Positions 1,094 through 63,296 of a stretch of 64,000 nt of DNA are shown here, piece after piece. Each line of letters starts with the position of its first letter. Within the stretch, counting starts at the first letter, position 1. The stretch comes from Vitis vinifera (Eukaryota > Streptophyta > Magnoliopsida > Vitales > Vitaceae). The stretch spans positions 2,326,501 through 2,390,500 of the forward strand of contig NC_081823.1 in the NCBI RefSeq assembly GCF_030704535.1, in the 5' to 3' direction. The notes under the pieces are model-generated. The model made no database searches. It was not told the origin of the DNA and saw only the letters and a program-made list of their open reading frames with translations. A program made the translations under genes and the position numbers.

Positions 1094-4000
1094 ATGGACT
1101 CCGATCACTGGTCGTCGCGTCTTGCGGTTGCGAAGAGGCAGTTCATGCTTCATCAAACCAACAAATCTCATTCAGGTATTTTTTTTTTTTTAAAAAAAAA
1201 ATTGTTTGAAGCTCTAATGTGTGGAATATTTTTTTTTTTTGAGAATATTGTTGAATTTTATGTTTTATTTTTTTGCTTTTTGATTGGTAGATCGGTTGTT
1301 CATCGATGATTTGGAGGTGGAAGACGATATTCCGTGCCCGTATTGTTACGAAGATCACGATATCGCCTCGCTGTGCTCGCATCTCGAGGATGAACATTCT
1401 TTCGAATCCAGAGTCGCCGTGAGTTTTAGTTTTTTTTTTTTTTTTGGTTTTATTTATGTTTTTTGATATGGGAATGATGAATTTTGGCGTTTATATGTGA
1501 ATCAAGCTCTGTTTGTTTCCCGGTAAAATTATTTATTTGTTTTTTATGCATGAACAATAAAAGTTGACTTGTAGGTAACAATTTCTCAAGGAGACTGTTT
1601 TGGAGAAGTGAATAGCTGGAAAAGCTTTTGCAACGTGAAACACAATTTGTGTGTTTAGTTATTTATTTATTTTTGAGTTGTGATTTTATTGGGGAACAAT
1701 TGATTTGATTTTGATATCTGTAAGAGGAAACATAAAACAAAAAGGACAAAAGGGGTTAGATTGAGAGGAGGAGGAATTGAGCTGCTTTTATGAGGATTTT
1801 CATAGATTGATAGCTATTATGAGTTTCTTTGGGCGGAAAGATTGAAGAGAGCTGATTGGTTTCTACTGAATCTTACCGGCAAGCCCCACAAGTTCCAACA
1901 GTTGAATGATTGTGCGCAGTTGATACTTGATTATTCTAGGACAGCAATAAGCAATTCAATGCGGTTTCCTACCCTTTATCTATGAACACCCCCTTCCATC
2001 CTAGTGAAGATCAAATTGGAGCCTTGGTGTTTGATACAATCCCTTAGAGACTTTGTCAAAAGGAAAGTCAGCACGTTTGATCCATTAATTTTTTTCGTGT
2101 CATGAGTTGTGGAAGTTTGTGGTCTTTGATTGGGATTGGAGGAGGGCCTCTTGATTTCATTGGTGGCAGTGTTTATAAGCTCCATGGATTACCTTGTTGC
2201 TGTTTAATGCAATGGATCTTGTGTTATGCTGAAATATGTGATCTTGAAGGTCACCTTCCAGGGTGGTATTGAGATTGAGGAGTCTTCATTTGGGTAGGAT
2301 AGAAGGACTTTTGAATTCCCTTTAAGTCTTGAAGGGAACTGAAGTCAGAGATATGACCGACCATCTGGCCTGTCGGGTGAAGTTGGGGTTGGTTTATTTG
2401 GAGAAACAATTAAAGAAACTGTGTTGAGCTTGGGGCCTACCCTAGGGTCTGGATGGTGGTTCTTACTTCTTATACACTGAAGATTGTCTCATTAGAGTGA
2501 GTGAGTTTTAGAGAGAGATATGGAATAGATGAGGGAAACTTGGTGAAAGAGTGCTAAGAGGAAAGAGGGGTCCCTATAGTTCCTCTTGGGGGCCTATTTG
2601 TACTTTTGTGGTAGCGTATGTTACATAGGTTCGGGTATGGGTGTCAAATGCAGGTGTGTGTCTAGGTGTCTGATCCTTCACAGCTCAAGCTAAAATCACT
2701 TTGAAGTCAATTATAAACAAAAGATAACATATTCTTTTTTTTATATATATAGGCAAAGACGCAATAAAGAGTATATTAAAAGAAACAGGGCGTCCAACAG
2801 CAAGCCCAAAGCATACAAGAGGTATACAACGGGCGCCTATAGGCTAAAAACAAAAGGAAGAGGCATTCAAAAAACTTACCCACCCTCATCTATAGCCCAC
2901 CCACACAAAAAAGTTAAATAAAGAATTAGGCCTGTCAACAATACAACCCTTGGACCAAGACCACAAATTGCTAACAAAAGAAAAAAATTGGACCGACACT
3001 TGGACAAAAAAGTTTCTTTCTTTTATGTTTTACCCTTATTTTTAGGGGGGGGAAATCAACACAATGAATATCCAAAGCAAAACAGCGCAAGGATTTGCAA
3101 ACCCTTGCCCTTGTCGCGCCATATCAACACAGGTTCGTTGGATGAAATTGAAAGAGTCTGGATATCAAAGTTGGTAGTAACATGTCTCTCCATTGATTTG
3201 CTGTTGACAACCGTGGCAACATACCTCTAGCTAATGTCCCAGGTCTCAGTTAAGAGTCTGAATGCTGTTGGAGTGTGAGACTTGGATGTTAGGTCCTTGG
3301 TGAAGTTGCTTCATTGATAGTGTTCTAGGTGTCCCTTTTGCTAGATTACACAGATTTTGAGGGCCATGGGGTTCATCTCTGTTTGTGCAATGTCCTGAGG
3401 TGTCCATATGGGTTTGGTACTTTGAAGCAATATTTGGACGGAACTGTAAGTTGCAGCTTGGAAACTTGTGTTTGTACACTACAAGGGCCATTGGAGTTCT
3501 TGTATCAGTGTTCTTCCACATGCATTCCATTCCATGTGGGTTTTTCAATGTGGAAAAGGTTCTAGTACTATCCAAGCCTCAAAATACTAATACTTACTGA
3601 GATTGAAAAAACATTGTATTGCTAAACAAATTGAACCCTACATTGTTTAGTTTGTTGTTATCATTTATTTATTTTTAAATTTTAAGTAAGAGAATAAATA
3701 AAAAGAAGAGAAGTGAGAGAAGATATTGAACTGTTCTTGTGTGTATTTGTTGATTGGCTGGGTCATTACCAGATTCATCTATAATTAAATATTGCATATT
3801 TGTAGGATGATGAAGATAGTTGTTTTAGACATTATAATTTAGTTTAAGATCAACTCTTTGATAATTGAGAGGAGAATTGTTTTAATTACATTTGGGTTAT
3901 ATTTGGTTGGCTAGATATAGTATGTGATAGTTTAAGATTTTATCCCATGTTTGATTGACAATGGGATAGGATAAGTTATTTTGTCACTTATCTTATGTTC

Positions 4001-6513
4001 AACCAAACATGACATAGGATAAGTAGTAAGATATATTATCCATTTTTGTTTTATATCCCTTCTATATGAAATATGTTAATCCTAAACTGAGATATAGGAT
4101 ATGCATATCTCATGTATCATAATTTTTTTTAATCATTTTTTTATATTTTATATTATTTATTTTACAAAATAAATAAAAATGATTAAATAAATTGAATAAT
4201 GTAATATATAAAAAATTATAAATTCTAAATATTTTAATCATGAATATTATTAAATGTAAGAGATTTTTCTGTATTTTTTTTATTGGCAAATATTAGAATG
4301 CAATACAATTATTGAACATTGAAAAATAATATATATTCAGTTTCATTTTCTTATTTATTTTACAAACTAAATACAAACATAGCATATTACATATATTACT
4401 TCAAGATTTCATGTACATTTTATATGATATCCAAGGATATCATATGACATTAGAAATGATATCTTGGGATATGTATTTCTTAGCCAATGAGACATGATAT
4501 CCTAGAAATACATATTCTATCCCATCCTATCATATCCTATGCAATTCCACCAACCAAACGTATCCTTAATATCTATGTTGGGTTATGGATCATGAGTTTC
4601 TAGTTCTAATATATACAAAGAGGATATGTATCTTAGGATTGGATAAGACTCAAGGCGCTGCAAATCTAAAAGATTGATGGATAACTATATGTCATCAATC
4701 AACCTTTTAGTTAGGTGTCTTTGGATTCTGGATAGAAGTTATTCAATACATTATCTTAAATTTCATTTAGTTTTGAATCATAAATTCAGATAAGTCTGTG
4801 ACATTGGCAATTTGTTTATTGCTATTTTTTCTCTCTAAATTGACTAATTTTCATGATAGAAGAACATTTATTGAACCCAAAAGATACAAGACTGATTCTC
4901 CATTTTTTTTTGTCTTCCTCTCTTTCAGGTTTGTCCAATTTGCTCTGTTAAGATTGCAAGAGACATGCTAGGTCATATAACAATGCAACACAGGCACTTG
5001 TTTAAGATATCCTTTTCATATATTTGCTGCTGAAAAAGAATGAATATATATTTCTTTTAGTCCAGATGATCGAATAAACAATATTGGGTGCCTGTTCTTG
5101 GTGATAACCTTGTTCAACTCAAATAAAAAGGTCTTGTATCTCAACTACTTGTGGTAGGCTTTGAGAAGCATTTTTGCCATTCATCCCCATCAGCAACCAT
5201 ATCCTCTGCTGAAATCATAGCTCCTTAGGATTTTGGTTCTGAGAGATTTAACCAAAAGGCTTTTATGTTGGCTGTCTATCAAAATCCTTCTCCTTTCATG
5301 GCCATAACGTGTCCTTGACTCATTAATATTGCATTTCTGATGTCGTTTTCCTTAACTAAAAGTTACTTGCAGAGGCGTCGTAGATTACGCAGAGTTGCTA
5401 TTCCAAACAGCCAAGCTCTGTCCCTTTTGGGACGGGATCTCCGTGAGGCTCACCTGCAGGTGCTTTTGGGTGGTGGGGGATATCGGCCTAGCAATGCTAA
5501 TGCATCTAATTCACTCACTGAGTCATTGCTCTCATCTCTTGTTTTGAACTTCCCTTTATGTGAAGCCGAAGAGATTACAAAATCTGTGGTTCCTGACCTC
5601 GAAGATATTTCTGGAGCAAATTCATCAAAGAAAACCTGGAATACAAGGTAGTGGATTCAAGTTTCTCTTTATTCCTTTTGGCAAAACATGGACCCACAGT
5701 CTCTAAGACTTACCAAGTCTTGTAATTAGTTGCAGATAGTTCTTGTTTTCTGTTACACACACACACATCTTCTCTTGGGAAGTACAAACTAGATACTTCA
5801 AATGCTTGTTGAGATATGTGAGACCATTCAAGGATATACTGGATGAGACTTGGTGATGCATTAGCAATGACAGAGGTAAATGAGCATCTAGTAATAAGAA
5901 TTGTAAAGGATGTTTTATTTCTTTTAATTCTCAATTTCTTCTGTAGAAAATTTTCAGGAACCAACCGTTCTATACTTCTGTATGCATCTTTGCATTTTCT
6001 TTTTCAAGATGGAAATGATATAAAAACTTGATAACAAATTATCTTGTACTTATGTAAACCTTTTTTGATGTTTGCACTTTAATTTGTTCAAACCTTTTTC
6101 AATGGAGGTCGACCCCTGTGCTTGATAAGTACCAGCCAGAAGTTGCCATTAGGAGGCTTTTGGAATTACAACTTCCTTCATATCCGTTACTGATCTAAAA
6201 GACTATTCCATTGATTAATTATGCATTATAGCATGCGCTTTTATCGTAGATGAAATACTTCATACTTGCATGTAAAAGCCAATAAAATCCTAAAAACGAA
6301 TGGTTTTATTGGTCATTAACTAGAGGTTCCCTATTATATGTCAGCAGTAGAGCTGCATTTGGTCCCTTTGTAAGTTCTAACACTGTTTCTTTCTTGATTT
6401 CCAGTGTCTATTCTTCCTTAAGTTCTGAAGAACGAGAAAAGAAGATCAGACAAACTACTGCAAGAGCAGGGTTCATCCAAGATCTGCTGATTTCCACCAT
6501 GTTTGATGACTAG
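1094..6513 (+). CDS. DI19: Dehydration-induced 19 (Di19) zinc-finger protein, 5 exons
   Basis: Exons 1094-1175, 1291-1418, 4929-5006, 5367-5647 and 6405-6513 join in frame to 225 residues, close to the family's usual 200-235. The protein has two Cys2/His2-type zinc-binding segments, DIPCPYCYEDHD with a downstream His pair and VCPICSVKIARDMLGHITMQH. A basic stretch LQRRRRLRR follows (likely nuclear signal), then the family block SLLGRDLREAHLQVLLGG and a C-terminal Di19_C region (ESLLSSLVLNFPLCEAEE). Di19 proteins are nuclear, ABA/drought/light-linked regulators, some phosphorylated by calcium-dependent kinases; specific targets cannot be read here. Exons 1, 2 and 4 use GT donors. Intron 3 is AT-AC (separate entry). 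Intron 2 is 3.5 kb and carries an L1 tail and a MITE. Without removal of intron 3 the protein would end shortly after HLFK. The ATG at 1094 is chosen because MDSDHWSSRLAVAKRQ is the typical Di19 start. Confidence 0.93.
2735..2990 (-). mobile_element. L1-type LINE 3' end (antisense) in Di19 intron 2
   Basis: A T-run at 2735-2743 (the poly(A) tail read on the other strand) is followed by sequence whose minus-strand translation includes NLWSWSKG and NFFVWVGYR. This resembles NFWSWTKM...SFVDWSG encoded at 44712-44915 (-), the C-terminal end of a plant L1 ORF2. Surrounding intron sequence up to about 3600 may be more of the same or another element; no clear target-site duplication was found. Confidence 0.6.
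3894..4565. mobile_element. MITE-like element with terminal inverted repeats
   Basis: The left end GGTTATATTTGGTTGG (3894-3909) is inverted at the right end as CCAACCAAACGTATCC (4550-4565), 13 of 16 matching. The interior is AT-rich and full of GATATC/GGATAT palindromes, and no coding frame is seen. A related copy lies near 23.3-23.9 kb. It sits in Di19 intron 2. Length (about 670 bp) and structure fit a non-autonomous DNA transposon; superfamily is not assigned because no clean target duplication was identified. Confidence 0.6.
5007..5366 (+). other. U12-type (AT-AC) spliceosomal intron of Di19
   Basis: Exon 3 ends at ...HLFK, followed not by GT but by ATATCCTTTT (5007-5016), which matches the U12 AT-AC 5' splice consensus. 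Near the 3' end, TTCCTTAAC (5348-5356) matches the U12 branch-point consensus, and AC at 5365-5366 lies about 11 bases after the branch A, inside the usual 10-16 range. Removing 5007-5366 joins HLFK to LQRRRRLRR in phase 0. An alternative AG six bases further (5371-5372) would also keep frame and drop Leu-Gln. All three U12 signals are present together, so the class assignment is strong. Confidence 0.9.
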
Positions 6514-12857: not shown

Positions 12858-15800
12858 TTAGTTGCTATGTTGTATATTACTGTGCCTATGGTAGAAAGAT
12901 TTTATCCTCTCTAAACCTTCTTCAAGAAAGGATGGATCAGCAGCAAAGGTAATGCGAAGCCAATTCTTCAGTCCCACTGCAACTCCTGAAAAGAGAAAGG
13001 TCGATCTTGTCTGTTAGGAGTTGGGAAGATGCTTGAAACTTAAAAACAAGTTGGCTTGAAATTTATCTAATGTGCTACAATTTTGTCTGTGACTCAGGTT
13101 GTATTTGGAGCCAAAACAACCTAGAATTATGGCCAATGAACCCGACCTTCCGAGAAAGGCAACAAGAAAAAATTATAGTTTCAAATTTAGGGGTCTGATG
13201 TTCATTTCTCACCTGGAAGAATGATCACCGATTCCTCTTTGGCCAGCTTGAAACAGAAGTCAATATCATCATTAATATCTTCCAGTAGTGAAAGGTTCAG
13301 CTTCACCTGCATTTCAAAAAAAAAAATGATTAAACAATAAGCAAGATTACTCCATAAAAACCACTTTATAACATAGAGCGGAAATTTCAGTTATTTTCTC
13401 ACCATTACAGCCATGGATCCCTCTGGTTTATGTGGGCAAGTAATGCAAGGGATCTCCTGGATCTTTTCCAAACAAATATCCGAGGCCTGCTTTAGTATGT
13501 TGATGGTTTTCTTAAAGAAAGTCCCATCAGTTTGCTCCATGATACGAGGGACTGCAGCCTGAACACCAAAAATATTTTCACAAAAAAGGAAAAAAGAAAA
13601 TAAGCGAGTGGATTATTGGCATGCACAAAGTTTGATAATCTTTCAGCTCAAATTAAAAACCCCAGGAAAAAAAGAAAACCTTCAGACTAAAAGTCTATGG
13701 ATTTCAGTGTAAATGAACAATAACCATGAAAACTCTCTAACACGGGATAAAATTTTACCCAACAAAAATTTCTCAGAAATAATATAATGTCTAAGGCTCA
13801 GGATAAAGTCGATTAAGAGAAAAGATTGGTTGGATTGCATCCATGAACTTGGTACTTTTCTATGTTCTTGCTCTTGATCAGCTTGCTCTTTGTACTGTGA
13901 CTGCTATATTAGCAACCAATTTTCATATTTTGGTCCAAGAATAGTTAGCATCTACGCATGAATTAGTAGGTTCAATTGGTAGAAGCTAAGCACTAAATTG
14001 TCTAACAGAATGCTAAAAAAGAGCATGATCTTTAGAACAAGTTTGCAAGATACCATACCTGAATGAATGTTGCAGGACCTCCTAAAATATCAAAATACTT
14101 CTTCAAGCGCTCAACAATCTGAAAAGAAGAACAATAGGATGTATTGGCATTAGTGAGGGATAGTGAGTTAATTAACAAAACCATCACATGCCTGCATCAA
14201 CACTCAATGTTTCAACTATGAGATTTAAAACTCAGAAAGAAAACGAAAAATAAGTAAATATTGAATTGTTGATCCCACGTGGCTGCACAGTAGGCCATTA
14301 TCATCAATTTAGTGACAGAAAAAGAGTGCACAGACCCAGATAAGAAAATCTGAAGATAGAAATCATGCAGAGCAATCAAGTGAAGCTATCTCTTTTGAGC
14401 AAAGGCATCCTATTTTAGCATGGTGTGATCGTTCAATTATTGAGAATAATGAAGTCTGCTATTGTAAAATTAGTGTTCATATTGAAGCAGCCACATGTAA
14501 ACCAACCATAAATTAGAAATCATCTGGTGCAACCAAAGGCATAAGAGAAAGGCTATGTGTGATAGACAGATATAACCTTACATATTTATTGTCACTATTG
14601 AGCCGTGAAAGATCTTCATACAGACAGTGGAATAAATATTACAACACATGGATTATATGCTCATATGCTGAATACCCTATGGAAGTGATGGTTCAAGATA
14701 ATTGAGAAGCATTATGAGAGAAAGAGAGGGAGAGGAACCTTGGGAGTAATGAACAAGCAGCTGGGATCAGTTATCACAAACCAACCCAGGCGCCAACCAG
14801 GAACTATCCATCTCTTTGATAGAGATCCAAGAGTAAGAACTGGAACAATCGATCCAAAAACTCCCATTGGCACAAATGGGTTACCCCCAAAAGCAAGGTG
14901 CCCATAGACTTCATCAGCAATGACAGGAATGCTGAGCTTCCTTGCAGTTTCTGCAGTCTAATGGCCAAACACTTTTCAGTACAATTCTAATTGTAGAAAG
15001 TCTCTATGAAGCAAAGAACTGAATGTGCAGAGCTCAAAGCCAGTTCCTAAACACTAACCTTCTTCAAATGTTGATAAGAATATACACTCCCGCAAGGATT
15101 GTTGGGGTTTATAATTACCAATGCGACAGTATTCTGATCAGCAAGGGCTTTGATAGCATCAAGATCAGCTTCCCACCCCTTCTCAGGGAGAAGATCATAG
15201 TAACGAACTTCTAGACCTCTAAAAGAAGCAGAAAGTTGATAAATTGGGAAACCTGGATTTGGAATCAAGATATTTGCACCAGGACGAGCAAGAATTGACA
15301 ATGCAACATCAATAGCTTGTGTGCAGCCAGATGTGATAAAAACATCATCAAGCGATAACTTATATGGAAGATCCCGAGACAGATATTCAGCAATTGCCCT
15401 GTTAAAAGGGAAAACATGTTAGGATTAGAGATGTCAATTCTTAATTACATAACTGATCTCAATGTCAAATTTAAACCGAAACCCTATGAAATTGTAGTAT
15501 TGTTTGACACTAGTAAAGTGAAACATCTCCCCCAAAGAAAATAAAGAACTGCACAGAGAGAGATCCATATTAGTACTTTTTCCATTGATTTTAACAAGCA
15601 TTTAGCAATTTCTATTAAATCTTTTCGCACTTAATTTCTCAAGCAAAAGGAGTTGGGACTCAGTGCTGGAAATAGACTTACATTCACTGTAGAATTAAAC
15701 CACTGTTCCTTTGACATAACAGGATAATATGAAGCTTTGTTAGTAATGGGGACTTGAAGAGAGAGTGAAATACCCTAATACCCTCAACTTGATAGATTTT

Positions 15801-16642
15801 TATTTCATCATGCCTAATAATAAATTGTAGAATTTCTAATTTCAAACTCTCTACACAGAACTCATAAATTGGCAACTTGATGAGAAGACCAAGCCCAATT
15901 ACTTTTCAAGAACAAATCAATTGAAATTCTGGAATACTTTCAACTGCAATTGGGAGAAATAGGTAATAGGAGCTAGATTAAACAGACCCAGATTCATGTT
16001 TACAGATTACAGACCCAGGAAATTTTCCTAGCAACAATGAACTGCAACTACGAGAATAATAACCTATGAATTTAGGTCGTAATTAATGAGAAATTAAAGC
16101 ATTTATGAAATCAAGCCATCAAATTCTTCCATAAACAATGAATTGTAGCCTATAATGTAAAAATCTAGATGCAAATTATCCAAACAGAGTGAAGAGACAC
16201 CATCCTAAACCCAATTAAAAACAAACCCACAAAGAAAATCCCCAAATCAAAGAGAGGGAGGGTAGAAACAACAAATTCAAGAACAAGCACTTGGGAAATT
16301 AAAGCAAGAAAAACCCAGAAAAAAAAAATGCAGCAGAAGTATAATCAGAAAGAGAGTTATTTGCCATTACTTTCTTGCTTGAGGAAGACCCGAAGTTGGG
16401 GCATAGCCATTGTACTTGTTGGATTCAACAGCATCAACAACAGATTCTGTGGCAACATGGCTGGTGTGGAAGCAAGTGTAGACTGAAGGGTCACCCATAC
16501 CCAGAGAGATGAGTCTCTTGTTGTTGCCCTCATCAATGTTGGCCATCAACAGGCTGATAAGGCCTTTGATGGTGATTGTAGTTGTTGTATCAGGCCCGTT
16601 CTCAGCGTCCTCAAAACCCCATTTATTTGTTCCATTCTCCAT
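12858..16642 (-). CDS. TAT: Tyrosine aminotransferase-like, fold type I PLP enzyme, 7 exons
   Basis: Exons on the minus strand, in transcript order: 16642-16371, 15398-15059, 14957-14739, 14118-14059, 13558-13403, 13306-13213, 12985-12858; all phases agree and give 422 residues, the usual length of plant tyrosine/nicotianamine aminotransferases. Landmarks: [10 protein letters not shown] and [14 protein letters not shown] in exon 1, [36 protein letters not shown] (Asp that contacts the PLP ring nitrogen), SLSKRW with PLP Lys at about 252, PGWRLGW, and [11 protein letters not shown] with the substrate-carboxylate Arg. The family moves the amino group of tyrosine (or phenylalanine and others) to 2-oxoglutarate, yielding 4-hydroxyphenylpyruvate for tocopherol and plastoquinone synthesis or tyrosine breakdown. 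No transit peptide is seen, so cytosolic. Tyr versus other substrates cannot be settled here. A fragment of a second copy lies just downstream. Confidence 0.93.
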
Positions 16643-16860
16643 TTCTTCTTCCTCCTCTTTTTCTTGTCCCTCTTTTCGTACTCCTGGCCTCTTTATCTTG
16701 TATCTTGTCCCAGAGAATCAGGCTCTGGGCTGCTCAGGCTCTGACGTAGGGACAGTGACAGGATAAACACTAGTGGAAGGAGAATGGGAGTGCATGCCCA
16801 ACACCACACGTTGAAGTTGAAACCTCTGGGAGATTTGCATGGAAACAAAAAACACTCATC

Positions 16861-28853: not shown

Positions 28854-29476
28854 TATAATTTTTTCTCTTTCTAATTTTCTATTTTCTTTCTTCTTTCTCT
28901 CATAAAACTACTTTCTGTTCCCTCCCTTTCATTTTCTTCACTGACAGAGGAATACCTGCACACTTTCTCACGCACGCACGCATACTCAAAACAGAAGCAG
29001 AGCCCACTCCTCAGACACATACATCACCCCCCCTTTCTCTCTCCCTCTCTCTGTATCTCTCTAGCTATATGGATATGATAAGGGCCGCAGCAGAGCACAG
29101 AGAGACATCAGAGAACAGAAGAGGACAGGGCAGAGAACCCAGATTTTTTTCCAGCCAGATCATACCTTATTATTTCGCCTTTCCCTCTCTGCCACACCAT
29201 TCATCAAATCCCTATGAAACCCCTTATAACACTCTTCCCCAACCCCACCATCCAGACTCTCCTCCTCCTACTACTACAACTACATTCCCCACCATCCTCT
29301 CCCTCCCCCCTCCTCCATGATCGCTGTCCCTACTTTGATTCTTTTGGCTTTTTTCTGTCTGGGTTTTCATGGAAACTTGAGAAGCAAGTGAATTTTTAGG
29401 TTGGATTTTGTTGGGAACCCTAGGAATCAGAATCACCCACCTGTTCTTGGTTTTACTTGTTTCTGGTTTTTGGATC

Positions 29477-30969
29477 ATGGATGCTTACCATCACTTTGAC
29501 AACAGTGATGCCCATTTGCCTCCTGGGTTCCGGTTCCACCCGACCGACGAAGAGCTCATCACCTACTACCTCATCAAGAAGGTCCTCGACAGCAACTTCA
29601 CCGGCCGTGCCATTGCCGAAGTGGACCTCAACAAGTGCGAGCCATGGGAGCTTCCTGGTTGGTACCACCTACCTACCCTTCTACATTTTCTCTCAAACAC
29701 CCACACAATCCATTAATTTATAGCCATTTTTTTTAACATACAAACAGAAAAAGCAAAGATGGGAGAGAAGGAGTGGTACTTCTTCAGCCTCCGCGATCGG
29801 AAGTATCCAACTGGCCTCCGAACCAACCGGGCCACAGAAGCTGGCTACTGGAAGGCCACTGGGAAAGACAGAGAGATTTACAGCTCGAAGACTTGTTCAC
29901 TTGTGGGGATGAAGAAGACACTCGTTTTCTACAGGGGGAGAGCCCCGAAGGGAGAGAAGAGCAACTGGGTCATGCATGAATATCGCCTGGAAGGCAAATT
30001 CGCCTACCATTACCTCTCCAGGAGCTCCAAGGTAGCATTGCAGTTAGCTTCACTTATGATATCTGATTAGGGTTTCTGGGTTTTGGTTATTGAATATAAT
30101 TAATGCAGCATCAGGATACGGAGCTGCTTTTTGCTCTGGGTAGTTTATCAGAAAACTTCAGACTGATGTCAAGTTTTTAGTGCTGTCATGGTCATGTTAA
30201 GACACTTTTTCTGCAAAGACATGCTTTCTAAAATATCAATATGTTGCCGTAACTTTTTGTTTTCAAACTGTTTTTAGTGTTGCATTTTTCTGAAAGCCAC
30301 CCACGTTTCAATTTCGGTCGTTTAATTATGCTACTTTTGTAGGACGAGTGGGTCATTTCCCGTGTGTTCCAGAAGAGTGGCTCCAGCGGCGGCGGAGGGG
30401 CTACCGGAGGGAAGAAGGCGCGGCTGAGTTCCACCGTTAACCTTTACCCAGAGGTGAGCTCGCCCTCGTCGGCCTCCCTCCCGCCCCTCCTCGACGTCTC
30501 TCCCTACGCTGGTACTTCCGCCGCCGCCGCCGTCAATGACCGCGAGAGTTGCTCCTACGACGGCGGCGAAAGCAGCAACAACAGCAATGCGCGTGACCAG
30601 CACGTGCCCTGGTTCTCCACAATCGCCGCAGCGGCCGCAGCCGCTGCTGCCAACTCCTTCAACGCCCACCACCAACCCCCGCCGTTCGACCTTGCTCCCC
30701 CTTCCATCATCGGTTCAATCGACCCCTCCCGCTTCCCGCGAAACGGCGCCGTTCCAGCTTTTCCCAACCTGAGGTCTCTCCAGGAAAATCTGCACTTGCC
30801 TTTCTTCTTCTCCCAGGTAGCCCCACCAATCCCCAGCTCCGGTGACCCCTCCACCGAGATGGGCATCACCAATTCGGCTGGAAACTGGCCGGCCCCAGAA
30901 AATCAAAAGATGGACAACGGCAGATTACCAATGGGAGCCACTGAGCTCGATTGCATGTGGTCATACTGA
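29477..30969 (+). CDS. NAC transcription factor, NAM/CUC1-CUC2 type
   Basis: Exons 29477-29657, 29748-30031 and 30343-30969 give 363 residues. The NAC DNA-binding domain spans about 14-165: [65 protein letters not shown] (positions 67-101), [31 protein letters not shown] and [11 protein letters not shown]. Residues such as [12 protein letters not shown] and [16 protein letters not shown] place it with petunia NAM and Arabidopsis CUC1/CUC2 rather than with ORE1 or NAC100. The C-terminal part is the variable activation region, with a nine-Ala run, Ser/Pro stretches and the clade-typical end [14 protein letters not shown] factors are nuclear and set organ boundaries and the shoot meristem. Both intron positions are those usual for the family. 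The ATG at 29477 is preferred over an in-frame ATG at 29408 because MDAYHHFD fits the clade. A miR164 site lies in exon 3. Confidence 0.95.
30599..30619 (+). promoter_or_regulatory. miR164 target site in NAC exon 3
   Basis: AGCACGTGCCCTGG then TTCTCCA over 21 bases pairs with the plant miR164 sequence as I recall it, at 19 of 21 positions. The two mismatches are at miRNA position 21 (the end, usual in NAM/CUC targets) and position 8 (G opposite G, where other targets have C or T). It encodes QHVPWFS, residues 241-247; the family normally has HVPCFS or HVSCFS. Cleavage opposite positions 10-11 would fall near 30609/30610. Confidence 0.8.
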
Positions 30970-41400: not shown

Positions 41401-44400
41401 CCCTGATTGGTTGCTTCATTTGAAGACAGAAACTTGTACAGAAATGTCAAGCAAGAAAGCACCAGCAAATCAGGCATGGACACATAGATCCAGGACTACC
41501 TTCTCCATTGTGTAAAGACAAGGGCTTTATAGGAGATGTTCTTGACTCTTTTTGGGGCATCTTGGGTGCTCCCTTCTTCAGTTAGTGTGACACTTTTGGG
41601 TTGGAATGGTTCCTTTGTGGGTAAAAAGTGTAAGAAAGTTTAGAGTGTAGGCCTCTTATGCATTTTTTGGACGGTTTGGAAGGTAAGGAATAGAATTGCT
41701 TTTGAAGACGATGTGCTTTCCATCCAAAGGCTAAAAGGATCTTTTGTTTGCTTTCTTTGGTCGGAAACTAAGATGTTTATAACGGATGGTCCTTTGACGC
41801 TAATTGGTTTTCATTGATTGGTTGGGCTCTCATTGAGGGTGGGGGGATGTTTTTTTACCTCCATTTTGGCAGCTATTTTTTGTTTGAGCTGTGTGGGGGT
41901 GGGTGTGTTTATCTTGTATATCATGGGTCACTATTTTGGTGCCTCTTTTTAATATTTATACTCTTCTTTACTAATAATAAAAAAATAAAAAAATCCAGGA
42001 TTACAAGCTGTTCTATTCTTCTTTTAATTTCATATTTTAACATATTTTAGCAAAAGAAGAGAAACAGAATAATTTTCTATTTTATGTTTTTCCAGATGTG
42101 ATGTGGCAAGCCAATTTTGGCATCAACTAAATAATATTACTTCATATATTTTCTTCCTTTATTTCTTTTATGCTTTATTCAAATTGGAGATATAACGAAA
42201 TATGTAAAACGGGGAATATCCTCAGAATAAAACAATAAACTCCATTTTTAAAATAATGAAGGATGTTTGATGGTGGAGACATTGTGTCAAGTTTATTTGT
42301 CAGAAATCTAAGTTATCATCTTGTTTAATTTGTATTCTTTTGGCTTCGACATCCTTTACTTGGTAGTCTTGGTTGCTTCAATGAGAAGTTCTTTCCCCCA
42401 AACAATGCCATCATGGAGGATGGTCCTGCTTAAAATCCAATGCATCCAAGTGTTAGTCTCAATTTCTTATTAATGAGCTGTATATGCATGGTCATGTTTA
42501 CCATACATGAACTGAGATTAGGTGTTATCTATTTGTGCTCTTGCCTTACCTTATGCAAATGTTACAGGGACGAGTTCGGGTTTTAGCTTTGGTGGTGAAG
42601 CTATTCTCTGTCTCCAGCTCTGTAGCGTCACTAATTCACAACTCTGATCTACTTAACTTACTGGAGGCAGAAGTCTGCAACACAGATGATACCCTTGTAA
42701 CTTTAAGTGTTTTGGAGCTATTATATGAGGTAGGACAACCTACCAATATTTCATATGATTCTGTGATCTCTCTCCCTTTCTCATCTAATTATCACATATT
42801 TTACATTTATTGATTCCTGTGTATAGTATTGTTGACTAAAAAAAATCATTTATCTTAATTCTGAATTTCGTTGGCATATATATAATTTTGTATTAATATA
42901 AGCGCCTAACAAAAGAAGTAGGCACAATCCATGTGCACATGAAATATATAGATAGTGCATGAACCAACAAGAAAGAACCAAAACCACAACACTGACCAGG
43001 TAGCCTATCCCTATATATATATTTTGTTTGAGAGGAAGAAATAGAATAAATGTATTGATATAAGTGCCCAACAAAAGTAGGCACAATCCATGTGCACATG
43101 AAATAAATAGATAGTGTGTGAACCAACAAGAAAGAACCAAAACCACAACACTGACCAGGTAGCCTATCCCTATGCCATCAACAAGATCTAACAAAGACAA
43201 AGCAGGCAGACAAGATCTCCTATACGTGCAAAGGAACAATGTCTTTAGAAACACATCTTTCACCACCAAACAAGACCACTGCACACCAGAAATTGTTGGG
43301 GGGCCAATTATGCTCACCTGAAGTGATCGAGAACAGCCCAAACCTCATTGCACTTGGCTCCAACAAAGGCACCTCACCAAATAAGCAAAACATCTCTGAC
43401 TGATTGAGGAATAACCCATGATAACCAAACAAAGAAAATACCATTAATCATAAACCAGATGGCCATTTGTAGTAAATGAGAATGTAATCAGCAGCTTCTA
43501 GATCTTCCTTGCAGAGGTAGTACCAATGCAAAGAACTTCATCCTCTTCTCATTAGTTGGTCAATAGTCAAAATCTTCTCCCGTGTTGCTTCTCATGCAAA
43601 AAAACCAACCTTGGAAGGCTCCTTAGAGTTTCAAATATTGTAATTCACTTGAAACTAGGGAATAATCAAAGGATCTTAGTTGGAGGATGTTGATGCCTTT
43701 TTTGGGAGGTTGCATGACTACTCCATTGTTTTGGGTACTAATGATGTCATGGTTTGGTTGGGGACTAAGAATGGAGATTTTTTGGTTCAGTCCTTCTATT
43801 TCTCTCAAGCAAGTAGGAGAGCAGAGCCTTTCCCTGCACAGTACAGAGTGGAACTCTTGGGTCCTTGTAAGAGCTAGCTTTTTTGCTTTGGGGGCAACTT
43901 GGGCTAAGATATTGACTTGGGACGAGCTCAGAAGAAGGGGATGGAGGATGCCAAACAGATGCTATGTGTGCAAAGCTGAAGAGGAAATGGGAGATCATAT
44001 TCTTTTGCACTGTCCGAAAGTGAGCATATTGTGGCAGCTGGTTTTTGCTCTATTTCATGTACAGTGGGTGATGCACTCTTCTGTGAGAGAGGTGCTCTTA
44101 AGTTGGAGTGGCTTCTTGGTTAGCCAAAAAAGGAAAAAGGCTTGGAAAGTTGTTCCTCTATGCAAATTTTTAGTTCATTTGGAGGGAAAGAAATAGGAAA
44201 ACTTTTGAGGATAGGGAAAGCTTAGATCAAACAATTAAAAGTTTCTTTTTGTATCTTTTTTGGGATTGGATTAGAGTGTACATGGGGGATAACATTACTT
44301 CTTTGATAGATTTTGTGAATGGATTAGGCTTCCTATAGGGTGTGGTTGTTTTTTGTGTGTATTCGCCCCTATTGGTTTGGTTTTTTTATATGTATACATC

Positions 44401-60239: not shown

Positions 60240-61880
60240 TTAAAACGCCCTCTTCTTCTTCCCCCTTCTAGTTGAAGGCCTTATGGAATCAGCCTTGTTT
60301 CTCGCCCCCTTCCCCTCTGGTTCAGCTTCTCTTTCCTTTAACTTGATGTTCATGGCATTCACCAACAACGTTGTCCTTGGCTCTGGCACCATTCCCATCA
60401 ATGTCATCTGCTTGAAATAACTCAAGGCATCGTCCATCCTTCCCTTGTCATAAAGCCCATGAATCATAATAGTATATGTTCGCTGATCAGGTCCCATCCC
60501 ATTTCTCTCCATCTCATCCAAAGTAGACCTCAATTTTAATTCATAACCCCAGTCCATATACAACTTTAAAATTAAATTGTAGCAATCACTGTTCATCCTG
60601 CATCCATTTCTCTCCATCCTCTCCAAAATCCCAGGAACTTCCTCTGGTTTCTTTGTGGACTTCAACAAGTAACCATAAGTTCTAGCATTTGGCAAACAAC
60701 CCTTCTGTTCCATGTCATCCAACAGCTCATAAACCTTTTCAAACCGCTGAATCTTGCACAAATGCTTGATGAGCGAGTTGTAAGTCGCGACATCAGGCTG
60801 GCAATCTCGCTCATTCATCTCCCTCAAAACTTCCAGAGCTTCGGGAATCCGCTTCTTGAAACACAATGCATCAATGATGCAATTGCAGATTGCCACATCT
60901 GGATTGCACCCCTTCTCCCACATTGCTTGAAACAGCTTCACAGCAGTACTCAATTTCCCTGCCTTTGTCAATGAATTTATGAAAATCCCGTATGTGAACT
61001 TATCAGGTTTGCACTTAGATGTGATTATATCATTCCAAAACCTCTTGGCTTCACGCAAACTCCCAAGCACACACCATCCATTGAGGATGACATTCATAGA
61101 CTTTATATCAGGTGGGAATTCATTCTTCTTGGAATGGAACAAAAACTCAGCCATTTCAACATGTTTATACCTGCACAATGACATCAAAAGTGTCTGAAAT
61201 GCAATCAAATCAAGCTCGAATCCAAGCCCTTTCCTCTTATAGAAAATCTTCACTGCCTCTTCTGTCTTATGTGCAGCTGCATATCTATTAAGCAAAACCC
61301 CAAAAGTCCTCTCATTGACAAGGCCTTTTCTCTTAGACATTTCGTCGAACAATTGGGTCATTTCATGGAACCGCCTCATTCGACCTAGAATGTCAAGAAT
61401 TTCATTGTGGACGCCACACCCAGGTGAATATCCACTTTCTATACCACATCTGGACGCCCAATTGAAGAACACATATGCGGGTCTCCAGTCGGAACGGTGC
61501 CGTTTAAGCACATCGAGGACCAAATCATCGGTCAGTGAGAGTCTGCATTGGTGGAGAGCTCCCTCGATCTCAGAAACTGAGCTGTCTCTGTAAGTTTTGA
61601 GGAGATTTTGGACTTCGAGAGCGGTTTCGCCATCTGGGTCTCGTCGGAACACCTCGCGTTTGCCGGGATCAGCAACCAAGCCAACAAACTCGTCTCTTTC
61701 AAACCCTTCTCTGAAATTAAATTCAGAGTTCGGGTTCTGTGTGCTGTGAAAATGCTGATTGGGAATAATGTGAGGAAGGATCGGGTGCTTTCTTCTGGGT
61801 TGGGTTAGGAATTCGAATTTGAATTTCAGTTGGGTGTTTACGCGGGAATAGAGTTTCAACATTTGGAATCTGGAATGCAT
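60240..61880 (-). CDS. P-class pentatricopeptide repeat protein, intronless
   Basis: A single uninterrupted frame of 546 residues. The first 55 residues are rich in Arg, Lys, Ser and Gln with few acidic residues (LKLYSRVNTQLKFKFEF...), as expected of an organelle, probably mitochondrial, presequence. About ten 35-residue PPR motifs run from about 155 to 515, for example FTYGIFINSLTKAGKL and ATYNSLIKHLCKIQRF, ending in PD or similar. The tail is basic (RRGKKKRAF). There is no E or DYW domain, so this is P class: such proteins bind organelle RNA and act in processing, stability or translation. The RNA target is unknown. A second in-frame Met (residue 7) is an alternative start. Arabidopsis At3g15200 is a candidate orthologue by position and class (from memory). 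Confidence 0.92.
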   Translation of the reverse strand: MHSRFQMLKLYSRVNTQLKFKFEFLTQPRRKHPILPHIIPNQHFHSTQNPNSEFNFREGFERDEFVGLVADPGKREVFRRDPDGETALEVQNLLKTYRDSSVSEIEGALHQCRLSLTDDLVLDVLKRHRSDWRPAYVFFNWASRCGIESGYSPGCGVHNEILDILGRMRRFHEMTQLFDEMSKRKGLVNERTFGVLLNRYAAAHKTEEAVKIFYKRKGLGFELDLIAFQTLLMSLCRYKHVEMAEFLFHSKKNEFPPDIKSMNVILNGWCVLGSLREAKRFWNDIITSKCKPDKFTYGIFINSLTKAGKLSTAVKLFQAMWEKGCNPDVAICNCIIDALCFKKRIPEALEVLREMNERDCQPDVATYNSLIKHLCKIQRFEKVYELLDDMEQKGCLPNARTYGYLLKSTKKPEEVPGILERMERNGCRMNSDCYNLILKLYMDWGYELKLRSTLDEMERNGMGPDQRTYTIMIHGLYDKGRMDDALSYFKQMTLMGMVPEPRTTLLVNAMNIKLKEREAEPEGKGARNKADSIRPSTRRGKKKRAF

Positions 61881-63296
61881 GTTGCAAATTGTCAGTTGGG
61901 TCTGTTTGGATGCCGGGAAATTATTTTCCAGCCAAAAAGAAGAAGAGGAGAGTAGCTGCCATGGCCTCCATCATGGTGAATGAGCTGAAACACCATCAAT
62001 TGAGATAAGAAATTATAAAGCAATATTAAAGGAGTTTAGCTCAAAAGCTTATAATTATTTTTTCTTTTGGGCTAAAAATAAAGTGGATGATGATTTTTTT
62101 TTTTTAATTCTTGGGTGCTTAGTAAAATAATATTTTATTTATTATTTAATGATTTAAATTAATTATTTTAAAATTATTAATTTAAAAACTCCTCATCTTC
62201 TATTTTCTATTTTTAAAATTCAAAAATAGTATTTTTTTTTATATAAGATTTTAAATTTTAATTGATTACTTTAAAAAAATAATATTTCTAAAATTTAGTT
62301 TAAAAAATGAAAATTTAATATTTTTGAAATGAATAGAGACTTAAGGTTCCATTAGGTAATTATTTTCGAAAGCAATTTGAAAAATTAATTTTTAAAAACT
62401 CAATTTTCAAAATTGTACTATGTTTATAAAATAAAAGTTTATTTAAAAATCAAAATTATTTTTAATATTTTTAAATATATTTTAAAAATAATATTTATAT
62501 GTAGTATAATTATTTTTTAAAACAATCATAAAAAATAAAAATAAATAAAAATAAAAATAATATAAAACAATTAAAATATATTATTTAAAAACCTTATTTT
62601 TATTCTTGAAAATAAAAAATAGTTTTTTATTATTATTTTAATGTTTTGTCTTCTAAAAAATAGAAAATTATTTTAAAAAATAATTATTAATCAGGTTGTT
62701 AATTTTATTTTTAAGTATTAAAATTATTTAATAAAAGTAATTTATCATATTAATATATTTGCCCTTTGTAATTTTTAATTAATATTTATTTTTATTAATA
62801 TTAAATAATAAATTTATTTATTAAATATTTATATTAAAATTTTATAAATATAAATTTTATTTATAAAATATTTATTCTTAAAAAATACCATGTAGATGTA
62901 AAAGACACTCTTGCTCAACATATGTAAATAGAATAAAAGAGATTTGATATTCTAGATAAATTAATTATTTTGTTATAATATTTAAAATTTCTTTTACTTT
63001 AAATTATAATATTAAATTATTTTACCCAATATTAATATATTTTATTAATGATCTAAATTAAATTTATATGATTAATTCAGGTCTTATTATTTTATAATTT
63101 ATATTCGAATTTATTTTATATATTATAGATTTTTTTTCTAATTTTATCCTCCTAAAAAAACAAAATTGCAGTATATATTCCCACTAGAAAGGGCAAAAGA
63201 GAGATATCGTCTCACTCCACACTATTTTCCTTCCCTTTCTTCTCTGTGGATAAAGCAAAGCAGTAGCTGAGGAAGCTTTGAGGGTGAGAGAAAACC
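61881..63296. other. AT-rich intergenic region between divergent PPR and S20 genes
   Basis: Divergent promoters at both ends; the middle (62050-63180) is extremely AT-rich with long A and T runs and no coding frame. Bases 62340-62700 contain imperfect inverted A/T-run blocks of MITE type. Confidence 0.5.

Follow-up and report, generated by a model that had tools for sequence, protein, structure and literature searches.

Arabidopsis Di19-2 has been treated as a U12-intron gene (PMC4892727, drawing on U12DB) and shows defective splicing in u11-48k plants. According to the same paper, the splicing of several U12 introns does not change in the 31k and 48k lines (PMC4892727). Work on U11/U12-31K counted Di19 among the U12-intron genes and described the protein as needed for most of them, Di19 included (PMC3422263, 2012). 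The available part of a further paper, PMC10639083, contains nothing on Di19. Across 121 plant genomes, AT-AC accounts for a mean of 0.06% of the splice pairs (PMC6310983). Di19 genes mostly have four introns, i.e. 31 of 36 genes from seven species (PMC8954995). Both this intron number and the U12 intron of Di19-2 speak for the gene model given below.

A predicted U12-type intron in a five-exon Di19 gene

We analysed a 64-kb stretch of plant-like DNA, referred to here as the window, which contains a drought-response gene of the Di19 family on the + strand (1094-6513) with five exons that encode a protein of 225 aa. Judging from the sequence, the segment 5007-5366 is very probably a normally removed U12-type AT-AC intron, the third intron of this gene. 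The parts of the gene are as follows:

1094-1175, +, exon 1, coding part from the ATG, with a GT donor at 1176
1176-1290, +, intron 1, GT-AG, 115 nt
1291-1418, +, exon 2, first part of the zf-Di19 domain
1419-4928, +, intron 2, GT-AG, 3510 nt
4929-5006, +, exon 3, second zinc finger, ending with ...HRHLFK in phase 0
5007-5366, +, intron 3, AT-AC, 360 nt, assigned to the U12 type by signals, frame and protein fit
5367-5647, +, exon 4, beginning with LQRRRRLRR and holding the start of Di19_C
5648-6404, +, intron 4, GT-AG, 757 nt
6405-6513, +, exon 5, C-terminal segment, with the stop codon TAG at 6511-6513

The joined protein matches two Pfam families, zf-Di19 (PF05605, 79.3 bits, cut-off 27.5) and Di19_C (PF14571, 89.2 bits, cut-off 29). 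The product of exon 5 also has a faint match of 2.8 bits to the C terminus of KCMF1, which is non-significant on its own.

U12 introns have the 5′ splice site consensus ATATCCTTT and the branch-point consensus TTCCTTRAY near the 3′ end of the intron. In AT-AC introns of this type the terminal AC lies about 10-20 nt past the branch A, and a polypyrimidine tract before the acceptor is not clear. Re-reading of the sequence confirmed the three signals that an earlier note on this DNA had described for intron 3; an additional candidate acceptor is given in the last line:

5007-5016, +, U12 5′ splice site ATATCCTTTT
5348-5356, +, U12 branch-point sequence TTCCTTAAC, branch A probably at 5355
5365-5366, +, terminal AC, 11 nt from the branch A, counted from 5355 to the last intron base, 5366
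5371-5372, +, AG that might serve as a secondary acceptor, at a distance of 17 nt from the branch A and 6 nt past the AC

The boundary of exon 3 and intron 3 at 5006/5007 reads TTGTTTAAG|ATATCCTTTT, and exon 4 opens with TTGCAGAGGCGTCG from 5367. Donor and branch sequence are both exact matches to the respective consensus, and the donor stands directly at the exon end. The last 40 nt of the intron are 62.5% pyrimidine, the last 15 nt being TTAACTAAAAGTTAC. The note had also correctly stated that the exon ending in HLFK lacks a GT donor; the nearest upstream GT is at 5000 and leads to a different protein. Removal of intron 3 joins the coding exons 3 and 4 in phase 0. The minor spliceosome would be expected to recognise ATATCCTTTT via U11 and then U6atac, and TTCCTTAAC via U12, and would thereby join HLFK to LQRRRRLRR, yielding the 225-residue protein with both the zf-Di19 and the Di19_C domain. 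We infer that this removal is routine.

The remainder of the window has a gene content that is likewise plant-like, including NAC and PPR genes in addition to Di19. Upstream of Di19, at the start of the window, a coding-like open frame without a Pfam match (2-274, +) represents the end of another gene. On the - strand, an open frame at 8497-9399 matches class IV aminotransferases (PF01063, 130.3 bits), and an exon-like frame at 15047-15418 contains an aminotransferase class I/II domain (PF00155); a frame without a Pfam match at 16367-16717 might, as a guess, be the first exon of the latter gene. A NAC transcription factor is probably encoded by exons at 29381-30969 (+), with the NAM domain PF02365 in 29381-29713. 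A fragment at 43666-44196 (+) carries a zf-RVT domain (PF13966), as found in plant LINE-type retrotransposons, and a pentatricopeptide-repeat protein of 576 aa is encoded by one long frame at 60240-61970 (-).

Chance expectation for the U12 signals

Taken singly, the U12 motifs are no commoner in the window than expected from shuffled sequences. With up to one mismatch, ATATCCTTTT was found 16 times versus 17.6 expected, two of the 16 instances (5007 and 33886) being exact. TTCCTTRAY was found five times versus 5.9 expected. We scanned both strands for the complete triad, with intron lengths of 60-1000 nt and an AC 9-14 nt past the branch A. An exact, correctly spaced triad occurs once in the 64 kb, namely at 5007-5366, and this is still the only one when a mismatch is allowed either in the donor alone or in the branch site alone.

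For comparison, 60 first-order Markov sequences of the same length were scored for the triad alone, without requiring an in-phase join of coding exons. The exact triad was found in none of the 60, and with one donor mismatch a triad was found in 10 of them (mean 0.18), figures that serve only as a guide because the spacing limits were set after the site was known. More telling than these chance figures is the position of the triad, which is flanked by a coding exon on either side and unites the two in phase 0.

One mismatch in the donor together with one in the branch site adds three combinations, all on the minus strand (donors at window positions 41742 and 32078); two of the three share one donor, starting with AG instead of AT. 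In addition, GTATCCTT at 4560 in intron 2 can be paired with three branch-like sites, and one of these pairings uses TTCCTTAAC at 5348 and the AC at 5366 and would skip exon 3. Both groups were set aside as chance occurrences, because none of them is tied to an exon end. An Rfam scan of the 64-kb window gave no matches at the gathering score and thus revealed no known snRNA gene of the minor spliceosome. Pattern stretches were also collected from two plant-free collections, 95 from genome_contigs and nine from viral_contigs, with no confirmed relative among them.

Protein test of the junction and alternative splice sites

The joined protein was compared with Arabidopsis DI19 (PDB 9qt9 chain C) using phmmer. 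The AT-AC model scored 109.8 bits, and the alignment crosses the junction ungapped, with LFKLQRKRKSRK against LFKLQRRRRLRR. Together with the Pfam domains and the phase 0 join, this bears out the proposal that the family reading HLFK-LQRRRRLRR is restored. A GT-AG junction elsewhere that yields the same protein would speak against the AT-AC intron. In-frame GT-AG and GC-AG junctions were enumerated with donors at 4940-5199 and acceptors no further downstream than 5439, and each of the 30 leads to a protein other than that of the AT-AC model. The comparison with solved structures covered two of these 30 junctions plus an AT-AG model, and the AT-AC model was ahead of these three rival models by at least 7.6 bits.

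The intron might be of the U12 type and also, or even mainly, end at the AG at 5372, whereby LQ would be lost from the protein. This AT-AG junction keeps the frame, and its distance of 17 nt from the branch A is compatible with such use, but the AC comes first, 11 nt past the branch A. Moreover, LQ is present at this position in Arabidopsis DI19, and the score against that protein drops to 102.2 bits. The latter value concerns one homologue, and Pfam cannot separate the models (Di19_C scores of 89.2 bits for AT-AC, 89.0 for AT-AG and 89.1 for GT 5000 with AG 5374), so that, at the protein level, the choice of the exact acceptor depends on this homologue. Taken together, we regard the use of AG 5372 as unlikely. 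If the major spliceosome instead removed a GT-AG intron from GT 5000 to AG 5362 or AG 5374, the frame would be kept with either acceptor as well. However, these two models fit Arabidopsis DI19 less well (100.8 and 93.0 bits, respectively), and they leave the exact U12 triad without an explanation. The sequence GTTTAAG at GT 5000, which we take to be a poor U2 donor, is a further argument against them, and this reading is extremely improbable. The AT-AC intron 5007-5366 is therefore preferred over both.

Predicted consequences of intron retention

Retention of intron 3 would bring an early stop codon into frame:

5031-5033, +, TGA, first in-frame stop upon retention of intron 3, 24 nt into the intron

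The truncation past the second zinc finger that had been proposed for the retained form holds by arithmetic, i.e. 96 residues are followed by ISFSYICC, giving a product of 104 residues. This product still matches zf-Di19 with 82.4 bits (Pfam); the part lost would comprise the basic stretch, a putative nuclear signal, and the C-terminal region. The TGA precedes the next exon junction by 614 nt, and RNA with such an early stop may be degraded or kept in the nucleus. Decay or nuclear retention must thus be weighed seriously against a short protein, and we think that retention would mainly result in less productive mRNA, not in a regulated short protein.

The earlier note had suggested a possible stress-sensitive switch. 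Spelled out as a mechanism, stress would lower the activity of the minor spliceosome, intron 3 would stay in the transcript, and the resulting short protein with its two fingers would be a competitor or an inactive form. The predicted retention product has the proposed features, as it retains the fingers but neither the basic stretch nor the C terminus. Activation in yeast by poplar Di19 requires the C terminus, and the N-terminal part of PtDi19-2 is without activation in yeast and still binds PtDi19-7 (PMC8954995). In human cells, U6atac is limiting and is raised by the stress-activated p38MAPK, the direction being more splicing under stress (PMC3728624). One review cuts both ways with respect to decay and translation: At-Di19-5 is listed with stress genes under alternative splicing coupled to decay, and a considerable part of the Arabidopsis retained-intron transcripts with premature stops is described as escaping decay and probably yielding truncated proteins (PMC3591102). 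The Di19-2 splicing defect of u11-48k plants (PMC4892727) does not count against the switch. What does is that an early stop of this kind, 614 nt ahead of the next junction, commonly triggers decay, and that Di19-2 splicing was reported as not significantly altered in Arabidopsis U11/U12-31K knockdowns (PMC5853960), a result that is not quite in agreement with the 2012 paper, which includes Di19 as 31K-dependent (PMC3422263). No case in which stress changes the retention of a U12 intron in a Di19 gene appears in the literature excerpts surveyed. A regulated switch at intron 3 is accordingly judged improbable, and loss of productive mRNA remains the preferred effect of retention.

Comparison with known Di19 genes

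Through its C-terminal pin region, Arabidopsis DI19 has been proposed to correspond in plants to KCMF1 of the BIG/UBR4 complex (PMC7618180); PDB 9qt9 is among the entries of that study, which used Arabidopsis DI19. In the gene described here, the predicted U12 intron 3 lies between the part encoding the double zinc finger and that encoding the C-terminal region. Since the C-terminal region resembles the KCMF1 pin in Arabidopsis DI19, the activity of the minor spliceosome could set the supply of full-length Di19 to BIG and might thus link stress, splicing, and N-degron proteolysis. We consider such a link to be very improbable.

For gene annotation, a gene finder restricted to GT-AG introns would miss or misjoin intron 3 of this gene. 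The locus extends the set of plant Di19 genes with a minor intron by one, and the general understanding of these introns is unchanged unless regulated retention can be shown. The protein has the same domain order as Arabidopsis DI19 and an unbroken match to it across the junction; in contrast, the two sequences have clearly diverged, with gaps in the C-terminal half. The comparison with Arabidopsis Di19-2 covers gene family and intron class: both genes belong to the same family and have a minor-spliceosome intron, predicted in the present case, whereas the intron at 5007-5366 is from another species. As the U12 intron of Arabidopsis Di19-2 has already been published, intron 5007-5366 is a further instance of a described arrangement and not a discovery.
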